A stretch of DNA of 64,000 nt from Cliona cf. orientalis (taxonomy: Eukaryota; Porifera; Demospongiae; Clionaida; Clionaidae). Below the pieces are notes generated by a model. It made no database searches. It saw only the letters and a list, made by a program, of their open reading frames with translations, and was not told where the DNA came from. Within the stretch, counting starts at the first letter, position 1. Each line of letters starts with the position of its first letter. The stretch is taken from positions 6,879,000 to 6,942,999 of the forward strand of contig OZ005691.1 in the NCBI GenBank assembly GCA_963930775.1, written 5' to 3'. A program made the translations under genes and the position numbers. Below, piece by piece: positions 49,601-64,000 of this stretch.

Positions 49601-52120
49601 ACGGTAGAATCCCACGATTATGCTGCCCCCCTCCCTTTCTCCATACTAGCATTGGGGAGGAGGCTTATTTACAGCATCATGACCTTTCTGTTACCGACTA
49701 ACGAATGCCATGTAGGCGCGATCTCTACACTTCCTCTGGCTGTTTGATGGCAAAAAAATGATGAAGTAAGGCATATTATAATATCACTCACACGTAACTA
49801 GTATGCTAGCTGTAGCTACTTTTTATTGGCTTATGGTCTAACTTTTATAGGGGCTTATATGCCAGATAAAACGACCTACATGTATATGTACATGTGTATG
49901 TAGGAACTTGATCTGAAGTGCGGACAGGTTATACTCGGGGGGGGGGGGGGGGGCAATTGTGGGATTCTGCAGTACATTTATTATAATTAGGCCTGGGCCA
50001 AGTATTCGTAAATAATTTTTTGAATAATAGGCAGCTTAAAGAAGTTGAATACTGGACTTTTCAACTGCTCAAGGAAGTAGTGTGCATACACAATGTGTAC
50101 TTAAAATAGAAAACTTTGTGTCATGTGACATGAGTCTGTGACCAAATGGAGGAAGCACTTGAGCAAACAGCTCAGATAACTAGTCGTCGATCATTTTTGG
50201 GAGTGCTAAAACTTCCTTTAGCCTCAGAACTTACAATAAAGAGAAAATTTTCACATGATCCAGCACTTGTTGGCCAAAATGTACATGTACATTCTGGTCA
50301 TATTCATGGTTCATTTACGTTTCGTCAGCTTTTTTAAGAATAATGGGTAACTTTTCTTCAATAATGGGGTAGATAAGTACATGTAAAGAATAATTATTTG
50401 AATAATGGGCAAATTAAAAGAATATTTGGCCTATGCCTAAATATAATACGTTTGTACGGGGGGGGGGGGGGGGGGGGGGGGAGGGGGGGTATATGTCCAT
50501 AGGCTTCATCACAATATTATATCTCCAGTAGTAATTTATTTTGTGGTGTAATCTATAATGAAACCTATGGTATAATCTGTAAGGTACGATAATTATGAGA
50601 AAATTTAGGGCCTTGATGGAGACTTGAAATCGGTCAATATGTTTACAGTAGAGTATGTATCTGGTGAATACCTTATAAACTGTGTGCTACTTTCTCTGAC
50701 AAGTATGTCTTGTGATGCGTGAATGAGTGTGCAGGCCAGCTTTATTAAATTGGGTTATGAATAACATAGTATGGCATGCATACAGTATATACCGTATTTC
50801 CTCGATCAGACGCCGCGGCTACTATTAATTTCGAGCTTTGCTGGAGTGCGGCTACTACTGAATCGAGGGCGGCTCTTATTCGAGGGCGGCTTTTATCAGG
50901 GACTATACATTATCTTTCAGATGAACTGGAAACGCGCGCGCCGCCCTATTACAAAGTACACATTTCCGTTTCTGCAATCATCGTTACGGGTAAAAAATAT
51001 CGCGAGCGGTAAGAAGCTACAAAGGCTGCTTGGAAACACCAATGGTGGTCGACCTGACAACGGAGTCAGCGTCTGTGAGGGCGTCTATAGTAGACCATAG
51101 TCGTAATACAACGTGCTGAAAGCCATTTTGTGGTGAGTGTGCTTCTGAGTGCGCTCTCTATGAGTGAAAAAGTTCAGTATGGCTACTTTTTATGTCCTGG
51201 CAATACTTGGTGCTGGATTAGCTCAGAAAGTGAAGCTCTCATAGGATTCTACACAGCGCGAGTAGTAAGCCCCAATCTTGCTTTACTGGGTGCACATATT
51301 CTTTTGAGCTGGAAGGTACTCTAGGAGCACGAGACCCCCCAAGTTTAAAAATTTACTTGACAAAGATGGACACCTTTTGTGCTGGATAATCTCACGAACT
51401 AAAACAGACATGAGCATTATTCAAACGTAAAAAGTAAGTTTACCCGTTGCTTCACTGGGTAAACAACATTTGGTGTGCTAAACATTATGTAAGAGTTTCC
51501 TACAAGCCTTCATAGAAGTACTAGACGGCCATATTGACTGTCTTGGCACCCTAGTACAGTACAGTAGCAATACTTCCGGGTACACTTCCGGGCGTAACGA
51601 TGATTGTAGAATTTTCGCGAGTGTAATAATGTAGCGTTTCCAGTCCATCTGAAAGATAATGTATAGTCCCTGCCTTTATTAATTTGAAGCAACACCTCTT
51701 AGTGATATTAACACAATAGACTCGATTTTTCGGGACTGATTTTCGAATGTTCGAGATAGATGATCGATGAATAAGCAGCAGAACCAAGCCAAGGACGTTT
51801 TCTGCCATGTTCTTGCCTCGAACTAACGATCGTTCATGGCTTGCTATTGTGGCCATGCCCACTTAATTGTGTTCGCACATGCGTGCGGCTACTATTCGAG
51901 GGCGGCTACTATTTCCGCAGAGCTCCAAGTGCGGCTATTATTCGAGGGCGGCCTTTATTCGAGGAAATACGGTACCCTAGGCATGAAATACTCTTCTCTG
52001 TCTACAGCTGTTATAGATCTGAATGGAAGATTCTTTGGTGGTCGAATTGTCAAGGCATCTTTTTTCTCTGAAGAACGCTTCTCAAGTTATGATTTGGCAC
52101 CTAGGGACAAGACATTGTAA
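25697..52120 (+). CDS. RBM17: RBM17 / SPF45 splicing factor, complete
   Basis: SPF45 is a nuclear U2-associated protein that acts in the second step of splicing and in alternative 3' splice-site choice. Exons: 25697-25817, 28189-28268, 29099-29149, 33339-33506, 34855-34978, 35522-35605, 35673-35745, 35822-35880, 40827-40922, 42073-42155, 47011-47109, 49401-49476 and 52008-52120. All 12 junctions are in phase and give 408 aa (human 401). The N-terminus MSLYEGLEVET matches the family. A conserved block with DEYDPLLPNSYEQVLKERR ends near residue 140. A basic stretch rich in R/K followed by SSSGSDDDS lies at about 141-170. The G-patch is about 235-283 (SKYGWEEGKGLGKASQGIS, then SVEKTSKRGGKIV). 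The C-terminal UHM/RRM is about 305-398 (KVILLQNMVGPGDVDEDL, AKYGEVERCLIFE) and its ligand-binding RXF motif is R379-F380-F381 (LNGRFFGGRIVKA). Introns range from 67-76 bp to about 4.9 kb and contain most of the MITEs of the window. The gene converges with the RNF213-like gene. Confidence 0.97.
26311..26421. repeat. Foldback element in RBM17 intron 1
   Basis: Arms atatcgcatggtaggcag, then tattatgaattataaagcc, are matched by ggctttataatccataat, then gcctactatgcgacat. The tip is ccaagggggagg. Confidence 0.8.
27060..27125. repeat. 'gtttgtctgt' dispersed repeat fragment
   Basis: The words accccgtgtgcatggagggg and aatcagtttgtctgttgtct resemble the block at 31793-31930 and the TCTG-containing blocks at 14752-14815, 43330-43400 (inverted) and 60232-60310. 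Confidence 0.5.
27596..27942. mobile_element. TACCGTA-type MITE, 'attctaattaa' family
   Basis: Ends taccgtacccattctaatta and ttaattaaatcggatacggta. Words of the type ctctaattatgcgc / gctctaactatgcgtca are repeated inside. It is 347 bp and lies in RBM17 intron 1. Confidence 0.8.
28528..28877. mobile_element. Foldback MITE of the 'CCTCGTCCCCA' family
   Basis: Left arm tagcctcgtccccaagctct through gcctcgtaacgactgcgtg; right arm gcatgcagtcgttaccaggc through gagcccggggacaaggcta. Arms are about 70 bp with an unrelated centre. It lies in RBM17 intron 2. Confidence 0.82.
30405..30590 (-). pseudogene. Fragment of a Penelope-like element reverse transcriptase
   Basis: On the minus strand the open stretch reads LDEFLNSIPRPTIKIYSTME, then VESGNTLPFLDVHI, then GSFHPHKQ. 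The combination FLNS-x(n)-I-x-TMEVE-x(n)-LPFLDV followed by G-S is typical of the Penelope-like RT just before its 'RKPTHT' segment. The reading frame degrades immediately afterwards (the 'RKPT' position is not in frame) and nothing else of the RT is present nearby. It is a decayed insertion in RBM17 intron 3. Confidence 0.6.
30730..31336. mobile_element. TACCGTA-type MITE, 'aaattttcgcc' family
   Basis: Ends taccgtatagcacaaaattt and gaaaatttccggctatacggta. Words aaaatttcgcc / ggcgaaaattt are arrayed inside both ends (at least three at each). The 607-bp centre is GC-richer and contains short open frames with no recognisable product. Related fragments are at 26080-26225 and 31380-31646. Confidence 0.8.
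31793..31930. repeat. Repeat block with (TCCG)n / (TCTG)n
   Basis: It starts taaccctcaccgcaaagcgt, contains gttactgcaatcgtttggcg, then gtctgtccgtccgtttgtcc and a tccgtccgtccgt run. Smaller relatives are at 27060-27125, 14752-14815 and 60232-60310. It may be a SINE-type family; no clear pol III boxes were identified. Confidence 0.55.
31931..33338. other. RBM17 intron, nothing recognised
   Basis: AT-rich intronic DNA with tacatgta words (for example 32440-32460 and 32983-32998). No exon and no convincing inverted repeat. Confidence 0.5.
33886..34062. mobile_element. TACCGTA-type MITE, 'aatttggcggtt' family
   Basis: Ends taccgtatagcaggaaatat and ccagattttccggctatacggta. Between them is an almost continuous array of ttggcggtt / accgccaaa words. 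The same element in diverged form is at 5637-5858. It is 177 bp and lies in an RBM17 intron. Confidence 0.88.
34720..34820. repeat. Foldback with 'gaagattctctgcgga' arms
   Basis: The words agacgaagattctctgcgga, caatcttcgtttatttcaat and agagaatctttgtttatttt resemble the arms of the larger foldback at 46841-46980, and the preceding 'gaagtgacatcgttctcagctgctat' flank also recurs there. It ends about 35 bp before RBM17 exon 5. Confidence 0.65.
36022..36205. repeat. Dispersed repeat with 'gcctgctcagcaggc' palindrome
   Basis: It begins cacaagttcagaaagctcat and contains gcatttcgagaaggcctgct followed by agcctcaagcgaagttagag. Same family as 13345-13560 and 56245-56665. Confidence 0.75.
36527..37187. 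mobile_element. TACCGTA-type 'aataagcccc' element with a nested foldback (36687-37002)
   Basis: Left end taccgtatcctcccgaaaat; the right side carries aggggcttataaataaggc and ggggcttattttgggagaa but has lost the terminal TACGGTA. Inside lies an element with ends ctagtctcatggagccagac and ttctggctccatgagatt, a member of the CCTCGTCCCCAGG-like group. The nesting order matches 18194-19172, where the same outer family also hosts a younger element. Confidence 0.65.
37670..38222. mobile_element. TIR element 'taccctcgcgaaagagggccc'
   Basis: Left end taccctcgcgaaagagggcc; right end the inverse (gggccctcttttgcgagggta) followed by cggta. It contains the 22-nt G run 38160-38181 just inside the right end, and a stretch with cgctcaggtaagttacccat. 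Confidence 0.78.
38236..38650 (+). pseudogene. GIY-YIG endonuclease relic of a retroelement
   Basis: Reading with frame changes gives INIVYIIMHHKAYVGQTINM, then in the next frame RINKHLAMVKSFKHGIE, then KRDAEA, a stop, and LQKLKTLWIRKMCSMQPWGM followed by N. The order Y-I / YVGQT / R-N-x-H / E-x-x-W-I / P-x-G-x-N is the GIY-YIG pattern found at the C-terminus of Penelope-like elements and some other retroelements. Stops and a frameshift make it non-functional. It may share origin with the RT fragment at 30405-30590, which lies on the opposite strand 8 kb away. It sits in an RBM17 intron. Confidence 0.55.
38651..42072. other. RBM17 introns around exon 9, little recognised
   Basis: Apart from exon 9 (40827-40922) there is only dispersed material. 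A (gaat)n run lies at 38838-38855. A block at 39075-39260 (cctaggtgcactaaaagttg, gtctagatggctagtgcgcc) has words shared with 40540-40590 and 45890-46040. The end of a TIR-like element (ctgctgtacggta) is at about 40115. Confidence 0.5.
42662..42844. mobile_element. Small TACCGTA-type MITE of the 'gtaagcgccca' family
   Basis: Left end taccgtagtgtcttgggcaa then gcacccactcctgggtaagc; right end tgcttctctgggacactgta. It is a 183-bp diverged relative of 18324-18914 and 10185-10982. Confidence 0.75.
43877..44295. mobile_element. Foldback MITE, sister of the nested element at 7352-7770
   Basis: Left arm actaagagtagataacaagg then agtgtccaatgcgctatatg; right arm catatagcgtgttgacactc through gttattcactcttggta. 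The centre, with tgctagcagatcaacaagcg, matches the centre of the 7352-7770 copy in inverted order. It lies in the RBM17 intron 42156-47010. Confidence 0.82.
45131..45752. mobile_element. TIR element 'ttaaggttacgggatagt'
   Basis: Ends ttaaggttacgggatagtat and acactatcccgtaaccttaa. The 622-bp interior has no recognisable coding region. Only one copy is present in the window. It has a flanking-type TTAA end rather than TACCGTA. Confidence 0.8.
46074..46420. other. GC-rich block, possibly the end of a retroelement
   Basis: A sharply GC-richer stretch (caggacctccaccctgccgc, cccccgcatccagcacgact) is followed by a purine-rich tail of repeated (gga)caaacaaac words. An open frame of 63 codons on the minus strand has no family I recognise. 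The abrupt composition and the simple tail suggest an inserted retroelement end, but no protein domain supports this. Confidence 0.35.
46841..46980. mobile_element. Foldback MITE, 140 bp
   Basis: Nested arms gaaacaaacaagattctttg, cttaactgttcggtaaaact and gccgacgtttcaa are matched by ttgaaacgtcggc, gtttttccaaacagttaag and caaagaatcttcgtttgttt. A degenerate relative is at 34720-34820. It ends 30 bp before RBM17 exon 11. Confidence 0.85.
47141..48256. mobile_element. Foldback element split by a large nested foldback (47246-48027)
   Basis: The outer element is the inverted copy of 9751-10070: ggtaactaagtagcttagtt on one side, gatccatggtattatgagag and ggatgctaaatacagtagat on the other. The insert begins attatagactacgtaaacgg and ends ccgtttacgtagtctataat. 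It has arms of about 330 bp joined by a short spacer, and open frames on both strands mirror each other. It lies directly downstream of RBM17 exon 11. Confidence 0.85.
48374..48503. repeat. Foldback of the 'gttagacactgttta' family
   Basis: Arms gttagacactgtttagtcag and ctccaaaacag enclose a centre agaccctcgctttgcttggg-like. The preceding flank (gatcatagctgtaacaaata) is the inverted flank of the 6204-6870 copies. Confidence 0.8.
49937..50490. repeat. Two long G runs in an RBM17 intron
   Basis: Seventeen G at 49937-49953 and 24 G at 50458-50481, the latter followed after one A by seven more G. The sequence between is AT-rich with no gene. Possible G-quadruplex formers; run lengths are also easily mis-sequenced. 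Confidence 0.9.
50790..51974. mobile_element. TACCGTA-type element, 'ttcgagggcggct' family, 1.19 kb
   Basis: Left end taccgtatttcctcgatcag; right end ggcctttattcgaggaaatacggta. Words gcggctactat and ttcgagggcggc are repeated several times inside both ends. An inner inverted pair (tatacattatctttcagatg / catctgaaagataatgtata) lies at about 50904 and 51645. It is inserted about 33 bp upstream of the last RBM17 exon. Confidence 0.85.
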
Positions 52121-52401
52121 CTGTAGATGTACATGTCAAGACATGCTCAATTATTATTATGTAACTGCATAGTTCCAAGCAGTAGACTGTACTTACTGTC
52201 AATAATATTCACTATGATGAATGTGCCAAATTGCACTATTCAATACCCTTACTGGCCACATAATAATTATTACTAAGCTTATTTCAGAAAGTAATTATTG
52301 CTATTAGGGATGTACTTTCCAACATGCATGTTATCATTAATAATTTACAAACAGATCTATATCCAATGAATATCTCTTCATACTTATGTGTTACAAGAAA
52401 T

Positions 52402-52407
52402 AATAAA
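52402..52407 (+). terminator. Putative poly(A) signal AATAAA of RBM17
   Basis: AATAAA lies 282 nt after the RBM17 stop codon and only about 80 bp from the stop codon of the convergent gene, so the RBM17 transcript end is squeezed between the two genes. Confidence 0.5.
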
Positions 52408-52486
52408 TCTTTACAGGTATAATAATAATGTTATTAATATCATAGTAGGTTCAACACACCAAGTTATATAGCTATACAAATCAAAT

Positions 52487-55400
52487 TTATGAGGGGATTT
52501 CTGCGGTCAGCTTCTTGAACTTTGTCCGGATGAGCCGGACATGAACACCTGTGTCAACTCCAAGCTCTCTCATCACCTCGTCACTTGCACTCAACAACAA
52601 CTGCACATCAATTTTATTCTCACCAAATCTTGAAGCAAACTGTCTAAATTGTTTGTTGTCTTCCAAAAATTTCACTACTTCTTCCACAGATTGCTGGCTA
52701 GGAATGTCCTTTATCCCCGAAATATACTGACGAAAGTATACTGAAATTTTGAGTCGATCAATAGCACTGACAATACCCATGTCTTGCAGTTCGTTGTCTG
52801 GTAGTTGAATGAGAAGTTCTCCATTGATCTCGAACTCCTCGAAGATAGTAGCATATTGCTCCAATTTCACATGCTGCAGAAACTTCACAATATCTTCAAC
52901 TGACAACTGCTTGGCCATCTCCAGTTCATTTTCATCTAATGTCAAAACAAACAATTCAGGCATGACCATTCTGTTTGTACCAGCACAGTTTGCAAAGTAC
53001 GTAAATTGCAAATATTCTTTTTTTGAATAAACGACCCTGTACTCCATTATCATTAATTTTGCGCATAATATAATTATTTTCACATGTCTAGTTTCCACAT
53101 AAGCCAGGCTATAATAAAGAAATACTTGAGATTTACGGTATTAACTATTTTCAGTCTAGATATGAATTTCACGTCTATTTCATATTGCCTCTTTCTACAG
53201 GGAACTTACCCAGCTTTGTTACCAGTTTTGGTTGTGTATCAGCCACATTCTCCTTTGTTCCTACAAAACAATGTTCAAGAAAAATGCTGTAAAGTATGAA
53301 TAAAATCATTAAAATTCTAGGTAAATGAACTGTTAGCATGCAAAACGCAGTGAAGTGACAACTGAACAACTCAACACACTTGAAAAGGATATCCAATCTT
53401 GATACGTGCTTTCAGGATAAAATTAGTACAATGTCGTGTATGGAGAGAGGGTCTGGTTATGTAGGATCATTGGGGATCCATCCACATGATCTAATAGTCT
53501 TTGCAAAGTATCCCAAGCTATGAAAATTAGCTAAGCAAAGCCAACCTTGGTGTATGATATCATTGCGTTCTGCAATCTGATTGGTGCACTAAGATTGTGG
53601 GCATTGATCCACAAATTAGGCAGTATCCTAGACCCTCCCTCCATGAGTTCAAAAAGTAGTCAAGCATTGGGATTTACTTCTGCTCTACTGACTTGAGCTC
53701 ATCACGAAATGTACGGAGGGCAGCAACAGCCACTCATAAGCTACTATTAGGGCCCAATTGGATGTTTATAATAACATTTGCTGTTTGTGTGTACACTACC
53801 AGGTTCAGATGGAGTTGGGTCTTGAGATGGAGCTGCAGCAGCACCTTCATCTTCATCCATAAGTTCTAACATATTGATCTCTGAACTGTAGTGAATGAGC
53901 TCGTTCACCATCTTGGATGAATGAGGGGTTTCTTCAGGAGTTTTTACTACTGGTGAAGATGGACCGTTACTGTAAACATAGCCTTTACGTCTGAAGTGTG
54001 GCAATCTACGATCCCACAGGTCATCAACAAAGTCACTCCACCTTTCCTCCTCTGGTTCAGGAATAGCCATATCTGAACGAACAACTGATTGCATCTGTGA
54101 AATTAACCTGCAGAAATAATTTGACAGAGCCATTTCAAATTACAGTTTCTGGGCCTGCATATAGCTACATATACATGTAGTCTTGGTTTTGTGACAATCA
54201 CCTGGTCTTTATGCATTACTCGCCACCTACATGTATATTATTGTACATGTGGAATAAGTATCATAATTTATACCACAGGCACACAACATTCCACTCAGGG
54301 CACTACGGAGCTTTAGATCATAGCTGTAACAAATACAGTGATCTGATTGGTTGAACTGCAGTATCTATCCTTCATAGTAAATTGTGTTAGCCTATGGCTA
54401 GTTTGTTGCTAGGCAATTGTTTATATACAAAGCTTTTGGGCATTGTTACTAGGATCTAAAGTAGTTAGACACTGTTGAGTCGGTTTCTACATACCTCAGG
54501 GCTCAGTAGAACCCTCGCTTTGCTCGGGATTCCACACAGAGCCCTTCGGTCTTCTAAATCACGTAGAAACCTCCTAAACAGTGTCTAACTATTATATAGT
54601 CATGCTCTCAAGATGTGTGCTATACATTACATATACAGCACTATAGTACAACCTTGATTATTCAAACTAGAAATCAACATAAATGCGGGAGGGTCAAAGT
54701 ACAAATTGCAATCACGTGGTCGATTTGCACTTGCACAGTGAACCTCCATTGCGCAGCTGCCTAGCGGGAATCAGCTGCTGTGATGGCTACCAAGTCTATA
54801 AGTAAAAATACGAGCATATTGTTCTTTCAATCGAGGATAAAATTAAATGCTGGATAAGTCATTTACATATTTTTGCATGCATGATTGAATTCATGGGTGT
54901 GGCCAACATTTTCTATGTTTATCCAAACTTTCGAATTATCCTTGTGGCCAAGGGGTTTTGGTAGTCGAGGTTGGACTGTAGTGATGATCATCTTGACTGC
55001 AGTCACAGATTTGGACACGGCACTTGTGGCCTGTGCCCGTATCAATACACTGTGGCCAAGTATTCAGGGGAATGTTTTATCCCATATACGTACATAAGTA
55101 GTTCTACAATCTACGGTCAGTACATGTAGACAGGAAGTTCAAATCTTAGACCAAAAGGACACACTGTTGTCTTGTGCCGACAATGGAAACTTTCCTATCT
55201 ATGGTATGCGCGCATATCAATAATCACTATATTATAATACACGTATGTGTCACGGTATTGACATAGGAAAAGTGAACTAAAAGGAGAGATACGTATAATA
55301 CAATTATTACGCTTAAAGATCTCTTGCATGACAGTGTACCTTCTAAGGAATAATCGAAGAGATACGTAGTGTTCCAAGAAAACACCATCAGGAATTGCTG

Positions 55401-58400
55401 AGAGTAGCTTGCTTTCTGTATCACATATTTGAAGTTTCTTCAAGTAGCTGGTGATAGATCTCTATAATACATCAGATTCATGTGTACGTTAAAAATACAA
55501 GATATGCAAATAGCACATGTAGCACCTGTGGTTTTTCAACTAGTGTCTTGATAATACTAGGTTCAAGGTTTATAAGGAGATCAACAAATGTTCTCAATTC
55601 TTTCAGCAGATCATCAGGATTACCTATTGTTCGGTTATCATAAAGCAAGTGACAGATGATACAGAATGCTTACCCTCATATTCTTCTGGAATTTGTCGCA
55701 TTAGGTCCTCATCAGGCAAGCTCATTTGCATTTTAGCAGCAAAAGGCAGCGAGCAGAAGTCATACCAACCTTCTTCAGCCCACTGTACGAACAGCTGTAA
55801 TGTCTGGAAGAGCCTGCTCAATGTGAGCAACTTCAGGCATTCGTGCTGAGTTTGGCTTAGGCTAAATTTAAAACATAATAATACAATATCATACCAATAC
55901 CAATGCACTTACCTATGAATTCCAATCTCATGAAATACATCCCTACTGACATCCAGTGGATCATACTCATACAATTGCACCAAAAACTCAGGCAAGCTTT
56001 GCACCTCCAATTGTGAAAGATTTTCACTTACATCAACAGATAACTATAAGCAAGCAAAATTGATCATCTATTATTGTACATCAATCATGACATTCTACCT
56101 CTTTGATTAAATGTCCAATGGTAGTTCTTAGTCCACTGATCACTTCCATGATACCATGATAATTAGCACAGTGAAATTCATACACCAGTTGCTTTCTGAA
56201 ATCTTCATCTAAGGGTACCTATAGCCAACATAATATAATGGTCTGGTGGTAGATGCAACGTTTGAGCGGAGTGAGAACGCCGCCATTACACGGTGAGTTT
56301 GAGCAGCTGCTGCAGTGAGGGGTGTGGTCTGCACCATAATAGCAAAGTTTGATGCTGCTTTTATCTGTGCATGCGTACTGTACAAACTGGCACAGCATGC
56401 TGTTAGTAGTGTTCAGTCACATTATCCCATGATTGTGACATTAAACATACTTGTTTTAAACTAGTCATTAAAGAGCAAACATCACCTCTCGCTTCGCTCG
56501 AGGCTCGGTGGCCTGCCAAGCAGGCCTGTCGAAACATGCGGCGCTTGCGCCGCTCGCTTGAGCTCGAGAATGCATCTCTATGGCCCCTAGGCCCTGGCAA
56601 CCTTGTTTGTGCACACGGCACAACAATTCTGACCAATCGTAGGCCTTCTGAACTTGTAGAAGAGTGCATCTTTTACAATATTTTCGTTGTATATAGTATA
56701 ATCAACAACATGCAATAAATTGTAAAAAAAATAGGGATGGTGGTGCACAAACACATGTACTACCGGTAACAGCGATGTACGTACCTTGTTTGCTATTAAA
56801 AACTAGTTAGCTAGAGCCCTCTAGAGCACATACCCCAGCAGTATGGATTGATGTACTTGTCAACAACCTCAAGTCACTTACATACACTAGGCTACTTTTA
56901 TGCATGAGCAGAAACACATGTACTGCAGTAGGCGTGGTCAATGGTCATGCAACAAAGAAGCACTATTCGTGGGCTGTCCCAATCATCTACTGAAGCCAGT
57001 TAATAATTTTTTCGCCAAACTTGTGCTTACATCTCAAAGTCTAGCAATTATTGTGCTATGTGTATAGAGCAAGAACTGAAAGCTTATTATAAGCGCATCT
57101 ATTTTGCTGGCCTAAACACTCGCTGCATTTCGCGTATAATTGCTTATGTGACCCTTGACCTTGATACCTGTATGGTTGCTTGCTAGCCCAGGATTCCAGG
57201 CTTTTCGAGTTAGTCGAAATTATGAAGGCTACTGTAGTTTTTTAAAACAGTGAGCGCCATTTTGAGCTGGTTGGAGTGCAGCAACGTGCAATATGAATGA
57301 TTGTGCAATTGGCCACGCCCCTTAAATGTGCCCGTGAATGCACATGGGTGCTCTCACATATGTAGCTATTTTAGTTAGGCACACCTTGCTACTTAGCGCA
57401 GGTTTTCTTCCTGTGGAGACATAAGCACATGTGCTTAATAGTGGGAAAATGTGGTATATGGGTGTCCCTACTAATGGAGTACAGTATGTACATGTATGTA
57501 CACTAGTTAATAAATCATGGGCACAAGGGATGTATAGAATTCATTGCATCAAAGAAGCGCCCTGAGTGCAATATTAATAAGTGCCATGCATCCCGAGTGC
57601 ATGATATAACTAATTTTCAGGTATATTCCAAAGGAAAGACAAGCTCACCTTACTCAAAACAGACACACAAAGCTGCTCTGAGTCAATGTCAATCAAACTT
57701 GACACAACCATTGATAAAATTTCACCATAGATAATAATATCCCCCACATACATCCTAGAAACAAAAGCTACATGCTACGCAGTAAGCTTAGCTTGGTATA
57801 TGTGTATGACTCGCAATCAATCGACGGCTCTACCCATCGCTTCGAACCACTTAGTGCTTCGATTTTCTACCACTTTCCCACCGTACGCTTCATTATTACG
57901 GTTTTACAGAGCCCTAAGAGTCACCGAGGACTGGCTAATTCTTTGATCTTTAGCAATATTCTTGCCTGAGGCTTGCTTTGCAGTTGGTGCAATATGACTT
58001 TGCAGTTAGTACAATATGGCAACAACGTAGAAATGGGATATAAATTTAACAAGCTGGTCTCCTTCCACACCACATACGTTGAAAATAAAAGGTGGCTAGG
58101 GTACAATTAACAGGATTCCAAAATACTAACCTTAAACTTATCAGGTAGTTTGGCAGCAATACCCTCCAAGTCCAATGCATGGTCCCTAAGGCTACATAAA
58201 AAATATCACACCGAGTGGTAAACCAAGATACACAAAGTATAAAGATAAGCTTACGATATGTGCAATGAAGGCCTGGATCTATCTTCTTTAAATGTAAATG
58301 GAACTCTCAATGTAGAAATTGAGGAAGTGTCAATAAGTGGCATCCCAGCAATACAAAACTCCATCACATCTTCCTGCAGTTTAGGAGTGTCTACAAGTAG

Positions 58401-61400
58401 AGACAGCTGAGCAGGCAAGTGACTGTAGGGTGAGTCAAAATTCTCTTCACTCTTAGCAGGAAGTGGAAGATGACAGTGTCCATTAATGAGAGAAGACAGG
58501 TCTCTGTGACTAAATACACACAAAGATATCCAGAATGAGTACTAGCTATACTGGCTAGCACACAACCCTCATTTTTACTAGCTAGCCCTCGCTACACATC
58601 ATAACATAAACATAATGACCAACGCATCATAGCTAGTATGTTTGGTGTTATATATTGTGCTTGTAGGTCTAGTGAAACTACTGTAGCATCTAATAAATTT
58701 AATACAACTTATTCTCTCAGACTTTGGACGATATCACCACTGAAGTGGCATTCATGGCCAATACCGTAATTCGTGAAATTTTCGTTATTAAAAAACTTGT
58801 CGCTTGCGCAAAGTAACGAAAATTTTTTTACGTGAAAATACTTTACCTGCACTAATTTATACAGCAAATAGATGGCATGCGCTTGAAGTTGACAAAAATA
58901 TTTGTTACGCGAAATTTCTAACACAAAATTTTGCAAATGAAACTAACACAAATTACGATATTTTTGCATGCACATTAATTTTATGCTTTGTGTACAATTA
59001 TAATGGAACACTTGACCATATCCCCAGTAGCTAAATATAGTTGTAATGGTGCATATCGTAGGATATCAATATAGTGTGTACAAAGTTTACATTGATGCCC
59101 AGTGCCTCAATCGCAGAGATGGAGTCAGAGACAGAGTTTGGACCGCAAGTTTCGATGCTTTAATCACAGAGACAAATTTGACAGCACAGTATTCGAACTT
59201 CAGATTGGTTGTGGAATGGCACGCTGCATGCATGATGCATCAGGTCTGTGTATTAATATTATAGCGCAATGCTAGCTTTATTTATCCACGGGATTACGTA
59301 AGCCAAGAGAACGCATAAAGTTCGGCCACCCGTACTTGTCAGAGAAGGTGACATGCAGCTTGTAAAGTACTCGCTGGATACACATGTAAGATACTCCACA
59401 TATTATACCGATTTTCAGGTCCCCGACTCCATCGAGACCCTAAATTTTCTCAAAATTATCTCATAGATTACACCACAGGTTTCATAATAGGCTACACCAT
59501 AATTACCACATGCTAGGGGCAAATGTTGGTCATTCAGCCCTAAGTGAGTAAATTCTAATGTTGAGTGAAATAATGGTACATTGCACAAATATCATACTAT
59601 AGGTAAGTGCGCCATACTGATAGGTCTGAGGGAAATAGGCATAGCAGTTTGGCTAACAATACCGCAATCAGCACGATTCTGTGCAACTACATGTAAGATG
59701 TAGATAAGGAGTTTATACGTTCTGAGTTTAGAATTGTTCACACAGTTCAGATACAATAGGATAATGCATGCAGGAAGTGATCATCCACATACTTGGCAGT
59801 TTTTTTGCTATTAAAAACATACTTTTTGGACTTTCCAATAAGAATGTAGTGTTGAATAAATTCCATAACATTGAGCTTAGGAACTGATTCTGGACAATAG
59901 CTTTCACGGAGAGGAGAGCTACGCAAGTTCTCCATGATTGTAGCCACAAACTGATTCAAAAATACAACCTGTGCAAAAGTGGGAGGATATTTACACAATA
60001 ATCAGTGCACAATTCAAGTTATAACCATGCGTACCACGTCACATATTACTGCATATAGTAGATCATTGCTTGATTCATTCTCCGTGGAATAGGACAAAAG
60101 ATGTAGAAGTGGTGTATCATCACCCAGGCTACTAGGATGTTTAGTGTTAGTACATCCTGTTAGCTCAACATAAGCATTGAATGTCCCTGCAATAGCAATC
60201 ATTACACATAATACTTTTTATAATGAAACCTCGGCGCATGCATGCACCGTAGTGTTGGGGTAATCATTGCATTTGTGTGTGTGTCTGTCTGTCTGTCTGT
60301 CTGTTACCACGAAATCTGCTGCCTACCTCGTTTATACACAGAAAACAAAGTGTTATAGTCTAGGAGTGGTGTTTTCAAGGATTTAGTCAATGGTTTCCTT
60401 TCAACTCGAAGGGTATGGTAATTAGCAACAGATCCAACAAGACAACCAGCTCATCACTGATCGTAGCACACTGGCAGATAGGCTTCTTGGCTTTGCTGTG
60501 CATGCTATAAGCTGCTGACACAGTCAGCACTGTATGCACATGTGATACTGCTGCCTACTATGCAATCGTGTGCAACGTGCACGCATTCTTGTGGTCACTC
60601 CTTTGACTCTGGCTAGGCCATACGCAATATTGATGTGCTTGATCCCTGTGACATGATGTGAGCAAATTGCAGTAATAAATATGACAGGCAGTACTGCTCA
60701 GTGCACTTCTGCGTTGCGCTGAGGGTTTCATACTATAGTACTTTATAAATATTTGTGGTTTGATACTAAGTTTATGGGATCACCATACATGCATGTACAC
60801 ACTGTATACATATAGTGGGGAATTTTCGAGGGGTCCATGTTTGCAGATAATAGACTGACCATAAAAATTAAACCTGTGAAAAAAGTATGATTATATAGTG
60901 CATTATAATGCTTGGTCACACGTAGCAGCGAAATTAAACGCTAAAGATTGCCTATCTGCTAGAATTGAACCCCTCAAGTTTCCTGCTATAATTAAAGTTC
61001 TATCTAATTCCGAGCATTCAAAACCTGTTACAGTAAGCACTACACTGCATGCTCTCTGCTGGATATATCGGTTACCAACATAATGGCTGTACTTACTCTT
61101 AAGCTTATCATAGTGTGCTGTATCATGATGAGGGATGTACTTAGGTGTCACTTTTGCTAATCGGCCAAGAGTAATAGCTGCAGCTTCATCGTATGTTACA
61201 GCATAAGTGAGCTCAGTGTGCAAACACTGGTAGAGTTCAACAACATCAGGGAGAAGATCCACTCCCAGCCTTAATCGTGGATACTGAAGAACAAATTGAC
61301 ATAATGGGTACTCTGGACCGCTGGGATCAGCACTGCTTGTGTTGGATAGGACTCTAAGAGTAAGAGCTTTCACATCAGGAAACCATGGATAGCGGCTGTT

Positions 61401-64000
61401 GAGATGCCTGAGAAAAGTAATCATAGATAATAATAATAATTGTACTCTACAATTGCTCTATTTATACTCACATTATGCTCTTCATTACAGAAAGTTGAGT
61501 AACTTCATTGTGCTTTGCGAACTGTAGAAATAATTGACTTTCATAAATATAAAGACAACATCTTTCTAACTATACGATGGATTCAGTGTGCTTACAAGTC
61601 ACTCAGGTGCCTAGGTCTCAAGAAGTGGAAATTTTGTGCTCACAATTACGATGACGACGACATACTAGGTAGAGAGACTTGTAAGATAAAGTGTATAGCT
61701 ATACACTTTATCTTACACTTGTAAGATAAAGTGTATAGCTATACACTTTATCTTACAAGTCTCTCTACCTAGTATGTCGTCGTCATCGTAATTGTGAGCA
61801 CAAAATTTCCACTTCTTGAGACCTAGGCACCTGAGTGACTTGTAAGCACACTGAATCCATCGAATTCGGTGAAATCTGGCTTCAGTATGCTTTGAATAGT
61901 CCACGAGCGTTACAAATAGTGCCTTTTTATTGACTACCACAACCATGCCTATCGATAGTGCCTACTCAATGCACAATGCATGCAGGCCATATGCTTTCCG
62001 CTCATGTGGAAAACTAGTACACTGGTATTATGGTAAAGATTGTTGAAATAATGTTGGTAAATTATATGCTGCTAGCCCAGGCTGCTATCCGCCAACTGAA
62101 AGGTGAAGCCAAATCAGAATGCAAGATACATGTAGCTAACCAAGTGTAAGTAGTAGGAGTCCATATCTTCCTAGGTCTGGGGCAAAGAGAGGATGGTTTT
62201 TGGAATATCATCACTGGACCCTTGCAACTATGCCTCACATGTAGCATTTTCACTATTCTTATCAAATTCACAAAATTTAACCATGCACATAAAAGTTTCC
62301 AGAATTGCAGTATCGTAACCTGTACAGATTGTGCAATATGCACGTGGTATATGCTCTATAGAGCTCTAGTTATGTTAACTAACTTCACTGTTTAGCGTCA
62401 GTACTTTTTCTATCTCCCATGACACAATTAGGAATGAAACATTATGTTGGTAAGATTCCCCTGTTGTATACACAATAATCAGTCCCTTCTAATGCACTTT
62501 TGGTGATACCTTAAGATAGATTTATAGCAATAATCAAATGGCCCTTCAACCATAAAAATTCATAAGCAGTACGTCTTGCTTCCATGCATTACAATTACAT
62601 GTACATATACATACATTCACTTTCAGTGCATTCCATTGTGGTAAGAAGATATGACTGTGCCAAGTCTGTTCATAGTTGTCCAACTCAGCCTGTGTATGAA
62701 GCTTCCCACAGAGAGGTGAAGTTGACGTCACATCATGCTGTATCATAACAATTATACATTATCCTAGCACTGCATACATGTACATGTATATGGAATATGG
62801 GCCCACGTCGTCTATTGTTTGCTCAATTTGCCTCACTTTGCCATTGAAGCACATATGTACATGTAAACTGTAGAAGATCGTTAGCTTGACTGATCCAGTG
62901 ATCAAACACCCAAGTTGGGAATAATACATGCACGTAAATCAAAACATGCTAATTCCTAGGTGCATTAAAAAATCCATACCTACATGGAATTACGTATCCA
63001 TGATTATTACAATGGAATTACGCATCCATAATACCATTACATTGATTCTATCAACAAACCTCAAGAAGGTTGGTTAGACATCCACGGACAAACAATAATC
63101 TCTCTTCCTCGGAAATGTTCAACCCATCCTTCAGTAGCTTCCACATTGTGAACATCTGGGTAGCACAGTATCGTCGAAGAGGCTCTTCTTCAGATATCAT
63201 CTTTCCAGACAGTTTCTGTTCCACATCCTTTTGAGTAAGCAGTGCAACTGAGAATCCACAGAAGCTACTCCACAAGATCAAATAAAGCGATTGAATATTA
63301 AGAGTGCCTCTTGTAGCATGTTTTATATAATCATGGCGGCCAAAAAATCCATCCAATGAAAGTTTAACACCAGTATCGTAGAATTTAGTATCAGGGCCAA
63401 CAGGTACATCATACTACAAAAAGTTGGCAGAGTAAAATAAATGTACAAGCAATAAAGTAAAATATAGCATTACCATAAATCCTGCTAAGAAAGTGTTTGT
63501 GAGTTCGTCAGGAGTGAACATGCTATACCACAGATGGGTAGACTGAGGCTGACAACCCAGGGTGATGGCAATCATGTATACAAGAGTTGCTCTCAGATCA
63601 GCATCCGACTGAGCTGCTTAAATAATATTACATAATCAACAGAGTATATGCAGTATTGATGTTATGACTGACATTCATGGTCACTGTTGGGTGGACAGAA
63701 CAGTGCAAATAGAGGATCACCATCAGAAGTACCCTTAACCATTTCTTCTGGATCTACAAAGCAAAGGAGCAACCAGATGCAGTGAGGACCAAGCCGTCTT
63801 GCAAAACTGTCACTAGTAATTGCTTTTGCCAAGTGCTGAGAAGGTCTCTGTTTACATGATAATAATTAGAGAAAAGCAAAAAAAAACTTGGATGATTAGC
63901 TCACTTTCTTCACAAAAAAGTCATTGTATGTTGCAAGCCATAAGGCCATCTTGAAACATGCACTTTTGTTCATTGCTAAGGTTTTTCCAGATGTGACTAC
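52487..64000 (-). CDS. RNF213-like giant E3 ligase, C-terminal part with tandem SAM domains (partial; 5' end outside window)
   Basis: Exons (minus strand): 64000-63905, 63847-63673, 63616-63474, 63413-63060, 62737-62615, 62319-62239, 61521-61472, 61407-61097, 60186-60035, 59968-59823, 58509-58255, 58191-58131, 57754-57649, 56218-56099, 56043-55913, 55861-55674, 55623-55526, 55461-55340, 54107-53800, 53260-53210 and 52935-52487 (stop TAA); about 1,170 codons. All junctions are in phase except 58131/57754, which is off by two bases. The helical body recalls the C-terminal region of RNF213: LLPDVVELYQCLHTELTYAV, then DDTPLLHLLSY with SNDLLYAVICDV, then VMEFIQHYILIGK, then SAIPDGVFLEHYVSLRLFL. 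RNF213 is a cytosolic AAA+ RING/RZ-finger ligase of immune and lipid-droplet biology; its AAA and RING parts would lie upstream of this window. This family call rests on remembered motif order and is moderate. The last exon encodes two SAM domains (LSVEDIVKFLQHVKLEQYAT..., and QSVEEVVKFLEDNKQFRQFA...), joined by an acidic, low-complexity exon (54107-53800). Many introns are only 49-66 bp. Confidence 0.68.
52998..53140. repeat. Foldback repeat (family 'cataagccaggct') in an RNF213-like intron
   Basis: It runs from tacgtaaattgcaaatattc to cttgagatttacggta and includes cacataagccaggctata. It sits directly upstream of the acceptor of the tandem-SAM exon, and makes the open frame of that exon look longer than the true exon. 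Confidence 0.7.
54464..54589. repeat. Foldback of the 'gttagacactgtt' family
   Basis: Arms gttagacactgttgagtcgg and cctcctaaacagtgtctaac; centre with ccctcgctttgctcgggatt. Its flank at 54315-54345 (gatcatagctgtaacaaata) is again shared with the other copies. It lies in the intron 54108-55339. Confidence 0.8.
56245..56665. repeat. Dispersed repeat with 'gcctgccaagcaggc' palindrome, inverted copy
   Basis: It contains ctcgcttcgctcgaggctcg, gcctgccaagcaggcctgtc, gcggcgcttgcgccgc and ends caatcgtaggccttctgaac. It is the inverted, longest member of the family at 13345-13560 and 36022-36205. Open frames on both strands come from the repeat. Confidence 0.75.
59425..59510. repeat. Dispersed repeat ('ttttctcaaaattatctcatag' family)
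   Basis: The words accctaaattttctcaaaat and agattacaccacaggtttca match 8385-8475, and inverted 50535-50640. Confidence 0.7.
60232..60310. repeat. (TG)n(TCTG)n repeat block
   Basis: It contains cgcatgcatgcaccgtagtg, then gtgtgtgtgtctgtctgtct and gttaccacg. The block at 14752-14815 has the same order of words (cgcatgcatgagaggtacgg, gtgtgtgtgtctgttaccac), so it is an interspersed repeat with an internal microsatellite. Confidence 0.6.
61575..61862. repeat. Perfect palindrome: 142-bp arms, 4-nt loop
   Basis: The left arm starts cgatggattcagtgtgctta and the right arm ends with its exact inverse; I compared the two arms base by base and found no mismatch. The loop is actt. Within each arm a smaller palindrome gataaagtgtatag / ctatacactttatc borders the loop. 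It lies in the RNF213-like intron 61522-62238. There is no TACCGTA end and no other copy in the window. Confidence 0.93.

Follow-up and report, generated by a model that had tools for sequence, protein, structure and literature searches.

The minus strand of the window (the whole stretch of DNA analysed, 64,000 nucleotides, C3:6879000-6942999) carries the 3' part of a gene in which an RNF213-type AAA+ motor is fused to a C-terminal tail of two SAM domains, with no recognisable RING or RZ finger in the parts scanned. The arrangement of conserved body, linker and tandem SAM is well supported at the level of sequence, and of the four close paralogs detected in the genome three keep the SAM fusion (the window copy and copies A and B), whereas copy D shows no SAM within about 4 kb. 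On balance we favour reading the product as a giant AAA+ protein of the RNF213 family, devoid of a detectable RING or RZ, in which an acidic linker leads to a SARM1-like tandem SAM tail that would drive self-assembly. To our knowledge vertebrate RNF213 has no SAM domain, and no description of an RNF213-SAM fusion was found in the PMC literature, judged by titles and the beginnings of abstracts. A tandem SAM tail on an RNF213-type motor unites two modules of immune type, the RNF213 motor and the SARM1-like SAM, in one polypeptide.

The 3' end of the gene and its paralogous copies

Eight exons, from 56218 down to 52487 (Table 1), join into one open frame whose sole stop is the last codon, and each of the seven introns between them is bounded by GT..AG. 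The linker exon ends in phase 1, the microexon runs from phase 1 to phase 1 and the SAM exon is entered in phase 1; the preliminary description, which had proposed in-phase splice junctions leading from the C-terminal body into the SAM exon, is borne out in this respect. The gene extends past the window edge, with conserved blocks as far as about 108 kb in window coordinates (C3 ~6987165). Mechanical gene models, stop included, amount to 5,563 codons for the window copy, 5,897 for A and 5,278 for B; the gene predictor bypasses the 53800/53260/53210/52935 junctions and mis-splices AAA3 in the window model, and its model of copy A takes in a segment resembling an embedded 7TM receptor. What is said here of the 3' end is based on direct exon joining and on the paralogs, rather than on these models.

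Table 1. Features of the 3' end of the gene (positions in the window)
Feature	Position	Strand	Remarks
3' part of RNF213-like gene within window	52487..64000	-	colinear blocks with two paralogous loci; RNF213 match
C-terminal body exon (VPLDEDFRKQLVYEFHCANYHGIMEVISGLRTTIGHLIKE)	56099..56218	-	61% identity to A and B over 31 residues
C-terminal body exon	55913..56043	-	junction joining; paralog blocks
C-terminal body exon	55674..55861	-	junction joining; paralog blocks
C-terminal body exon	55526..55623	-	junction joining
C-terminal body exon, 122 nt	55340..55461	-	same 122 nt in A and B
End of conserved body (RWSDFVDDLWDRRLPHFRRKGYVYSNG) and acidic linker	53800..54107	-	counterparts in A and B; shortened in D
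Linker microexon, 51 nt, symmetric phase 1	53210..53260	-	72 nt in A, absent in B
Last exon, tandem SAM domains	52487..52935	-	449 nt, entry phase 1, stop codon 52489-52487
SAM1 (exon translation residues 12-65)	52742..52903	-	Pfam SAM_1; genome-wide SAM search, C3:6931741-6931902
SAM2 (~residues 81-145)	52502..52696	-	helices of AlphaFold2 model; second Pfam stretch

The genome (217 Mb in 149 contigs) was searched with the SAM pair, and three places matching over most of the length of the pair were found: the window, C3:1014713-1015105 on the minus strand (copy A) and C3:1130417-1130809 on the plus strand (copy B). The SAM pairs of A and B are each 31% identical to that of the window, and their loci share its contig at a distance of some 5.8 Mb. 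Once weak blocks had been trimmed, 44 colinear translated blocks were shared by the window copy with A and 46 with B (the untrimmed chains, of 52 and 48 respectively, have a last block that falls beyond the gene), the final blocks running in the order body, linker, SAM in all three copies, a recurrence that goes beyond chance. The SAM exon is 449 nt long and is entered in phase 1 in every one of the three; in copy A the order is linker, 72-nt microexon and SAM exon, in copy B linker and SAM exon, with phase 1 in both. Between A and B, dN/dS is approximately 0.11 (0.024/0.223) in the linker exon and 0.24 (0.047/0.196) in the SAM exon, and protein identity is 94% and 91% respectively.

These paralogs bear directly on an alternative raised in the preliminary description, namely that the SAM exon belongs to a gene of its own with a start upstream of 52935; the RNF213-like gene would then close with the linker exon, and a small SAM gene would follow it. 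The window copy taken by itself offers such a gene some room, having an open frame that continues upstream of the SAM-exon acceptor and contains ATG codons, and a weak linker-exon donor (GTAGTG) beyond which read-through reaches a stop at 53747. However, copy A has no methionine from the upstream stop to residue 121 of its SAM exon, and the first methionine of copy B is residue 44 of the exon, within SAM1, so that a separate SAM gene would need an upstream exon regardless. Furthermore, the donor after the linker is a consensus GTAAGT in both A and B, and phase 1 is retained in the three copies. On this paralog evidence (methionine absence, phase and colinear order) a separate SAM gene was ruled out as very unlikely. 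Poly(A)-like hexamers were uninformative, the five tried giving one TATAAA between 53800 and 52935 and zero matches in 52001-52490, past the SAM stop.

Copy D (C3:5201733 region), which was found by the AAA search, has colinear body exons and a shortened linker followed by GTAAGT. A profile built from the SAMs of the window, A and B copies, which matches A at E 2e-83 by construction, finds no SAM in D within about 4 kb past the linker, and hence the tail would appear to be dispensable in at least one copy. Over 235 residues chosen from four body blocks, D stands closer to A, at 69%, than to the window copy, at 49%, and so the SAM tail probably predates the split of the copies and was lost in D, where a SAM exon might still lie farther away.

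Several other features of these loci were observed. A block of about 125 aa at the N-terminus, at 108166-107783 in extended window coordinates, is common to the window copy, A and B; it gave no Pfam match over the cut-off and no convincing PDB match (best E 0.044). Copies A and B stand head to head (C3:1005001-1137000), and the first conserved blocks of the two are approximately 30 kb apart. Within the span of copy A (C3:1023001-1033000) there are open reading frames with 7tm_3 and ANF_receptor domains (class C GPCR-like), situated between conserved blocks and apparently intronic, and fragments resembling the class C GPCR-like frame of A also occur within the span of copy B. Convergent with the SAM exon of the window, an open frame on the plus strand at 51827-52120 ends TAVIDLNGRFFGGRIVKASFFSEERFSSYDLAPRDKTL; we take it to resemble the C-terminal RRM end of a splicing-factor gene.

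The tandem SAM domains

The final exon had been described as holding two consecutive SAM-type domains, and Pfam confirms this: hmmscan of the minus strand frame gives SAM_1 at E 1e-13 and SAM_2 at E 2e-13, with two stretches each, and the translation of the last exon alone gives SAM_1 at E 2.7e-17. In the PDB sequence search the best match to the pair is the tandem SAM of human SARM1 (6qwv, E 3.5e-6, followed by 6o0s and 6o0t), extending from residue 15 to residues 140-142. SARM1 is a protein of nerve degeneration whose SAMs form rings. Like the octamerisation module of SARM1/TIR-1, the window protein has two SAMs in tandem. In the alignment of the two, residues L442, I461 and L514 of SARM1 (our own residue numbering) are each paired with the same amino acid in the window protein (L, I, L), and L531 is paired with T; these four SARM1 residues are presumably octamer contacts. 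Unlike SARM1, the window protein has no C-terminal TIR NADase domain after the SAMs (none was found in Pfam scans of 52001-64000, and the gene stops directly after SAM2), and the Pfam scans, as far as they covered the 3' part of the gene, gave no ARM repeats.

The best AlphaFold2 model of SAM1-2, made with three aligned sequences, has pLDDT 87.2 and pTM 0.82, with the other four models at 39-46. When this model was submitted to Foldseek the first 17 rows were SARM1, with a best E of 1.5e-3, TM of approximately 0.35-0.40 and an rmsd of about 10-11 Å over some 140 columns, and in the predicted model the orientation of the two SAMs to each other differs from that in SARM1. The tandem SAMs of liprin fit the whole model better than SARM1, with 138 residues aligned at 3.7 Å. 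The VIA-align rows lie mostly over SAM1 and are uninformative on other folds for SAM2.

The SAM pair could alternatively serve for heterotypic docking, with another SAM protein or a membrane receptor as partner, rather than for self-assembly. Its predicted packing is nearer to liprin than to SARM1, SAM1 alone also matches the SAMs of neurabin, liprin-beta, ANKS6 and aveugle in the PDB sequence search, and potential partners are at hand in the 45 SAM matches listed genome-wide at E<=0.001 (88 candidates were scored). Across both domains, however, SARM1/TIR-1 proteins are the only matches below E 1e-3, and we consider docking rather unlikely as the function of the tail.

The AAA+ core and the search for ligase fingers

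For an exon of 469 aa at 76745-78151 (extended window coordinates), nine of the ten PDB rows are RNF213 chains from mouse or human, with E values between 5.4e-27 and 1.6e-26. The best of them (mouse, E 5.4e-27) cover query residues 33-455, with human chains scoring similarly, and the matched region of RNF213 is one that we take to be AAA3/AAA4. The AAA3/AAA4 core has P-loops and Walker B motifs, and a Walker A motif, GETGVGKT, is found just upstream of the exon. In copy B the Walker B motif of AAA4 reads FIDAAD as against FMDEAG, and the AAA4 site of this copy may be disabled.

Outside the motor no such likeness was detected. Two profiles, one made from the C-terminal body and one from the post-AAA exon, with which an E3 shell and C-terminal domain were sought, gave no RNF213 match at E<=10, and a 2,329-aa stretch of copy B gave none at E<=1; the single row returned for this stretch, MxiC at E 0.015, was taken as chance. 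PDB sequence searches with one minus strand frame of 52001-63998 and with the 438-aa open reading frame after AAA4 gave no match, and structure prediction for the post-AAA exon reached a pLDDT of 37. Since the E3 shell and the C-terminal body lack a sequence match to solved RNF213, the protein owes its family name to the motor; the family assignment made in the preliminary description holds for the AAA+ core and is unsupported as regards the ligase.

Three-frame Pfam scans covering 52001-64000 of the window, L009 and L010, and L022, L023 and L028 of copy A turned up no zinc finger, RING and RZ included, although a RING split by introns could escape scans of this kind. A genome-wide search for RZ (PF20173) found eight places, none of which belongs to the window gene or to copies A, B or D, and its success elsewhere serves as a control of its sensitivity. 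The C-x-x-C motif is absent from the A and B models and occurs once in the window model, at a dubious exon end; RING spacing has no match in any of the three models, and a looser six-frame RING pattern gives 8, 1 and 1 scattered matches in the loci of the window copy, A and B respectively, none within the models. The description of the protein as a giant E3 is thus unsupported, no RING or RZ finger having been found in the scanned parts of the gene.

The protein might conceivably be a divergent ligase lacking zinc fingers, in which a zinc-free active site would still transfer ubiquitin and the SAM tail would merely add assembly. Conservation of the C-terminal body among paralogs amounts to 39% identity over 270 columns, the window model has a weak phmmer match to an open reading frame of an RZ locus on C5 (E 0.0005, in a three-protein set and as one of many such queries), and RNF213 devoid of its RING still autoubiquitylates (PMC7311170). 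In human RNF213, however, bacterial ubiquitylation needs the RZ finger, of which C4516 and H4537 are the predicted nucleophile and base (PMC11549300). With C-x-x-C missing from the A and B models and the RZ matches of the genome located elsewhere, we regard continued ligase activity as improbable.

A putative assembling motor and its relatives in the genome

With vertebrate RNF213 (mysterin), a giant AAA+ E3 ligase, the window protein has the AAA3/AAA4 region in common; it differs in its tandem SAM end, in a C-terminal body unmatched by sequence and in having no detected RING or RZ. The self-assembly that we favour is suggested by analogy. The SAM1-2 of SARM1 forms octamers in isolation (PMC7688312), and the SAM pair of the window protein may likewise drive assembly of the AAA+ motor into a ring or chain. 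The self-assembled motor could then cover a target membrane or microbe with a dense coat or scaffold, independently of ubiquitin and powered by the AAA+ ring, and might have a role in immunity. In the excerpts of PMC11549300 that concern coating, growth of the RNF213 coat is cooperative and proceeds from rare starts, AAA+ activity is required for each of the three pathogens tested while the need for the RZ finger is confined to the bacteria, and it is suggested that monomers may oligomerise within the coat.

A bolder reading, which we put forward tentatively and think more doubtful than not, is that this RNF213 lineage swapped its ligase fingers for a SARM1-like SAM ring-former and became a ligase-free, self-polymerising AAA+ coat protein. 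If true, coat formation would be the core function of RNF213 and ubiquitylation an addition to it. The same excerpts (PMC11549300) do not settle by what means ubiquitin promotes RNF213 coats, or whether monomers oligomerise in them. A natural relative of RNF213 that apparently lacks both ligase fingers and bears SAMs in the style of an octamer-former would offer a direct test of whether assembly and AAA+ activity are enough for coating.

The genome also contains other RNF213-type genes. The AAA search returned 20 matches at 10 gene places, comprising the window copy, A, B and D and six places on C5 and C7, where the best matches are 34-39% identical. Two RNF213-type loci, C5:4559713/4551674 and C7:822830/831196, carry an RZ finger some 7.5 kb downstream of the AAA exon on the same strand; their AAA exons show 37% and 39% identity respectively to that of the window copy. 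Of two exons of the C7 RZ locus, one matches solved RNF213 (E 1.5e-11) and the other gave no RNF213 match. The window copy has a similar AAA exon but differs from these genes in having no detected RZ and in bearing the SAM tail; among the 45 SAM matches listed (E<=0.001) none is near the six C5/C7 places. The RNF213-type family is therefore expanded in this genome, with six AAA exons outside the SAM clade, two of which have a detected RZ nearby. Four further RZ matches occur within 27 kb at C10:8595543-8622319, in open reading frames of 629-2002 aa, and we assume that the RZ loci on C10, C18 and C2 may be ZNFX1-type genes.
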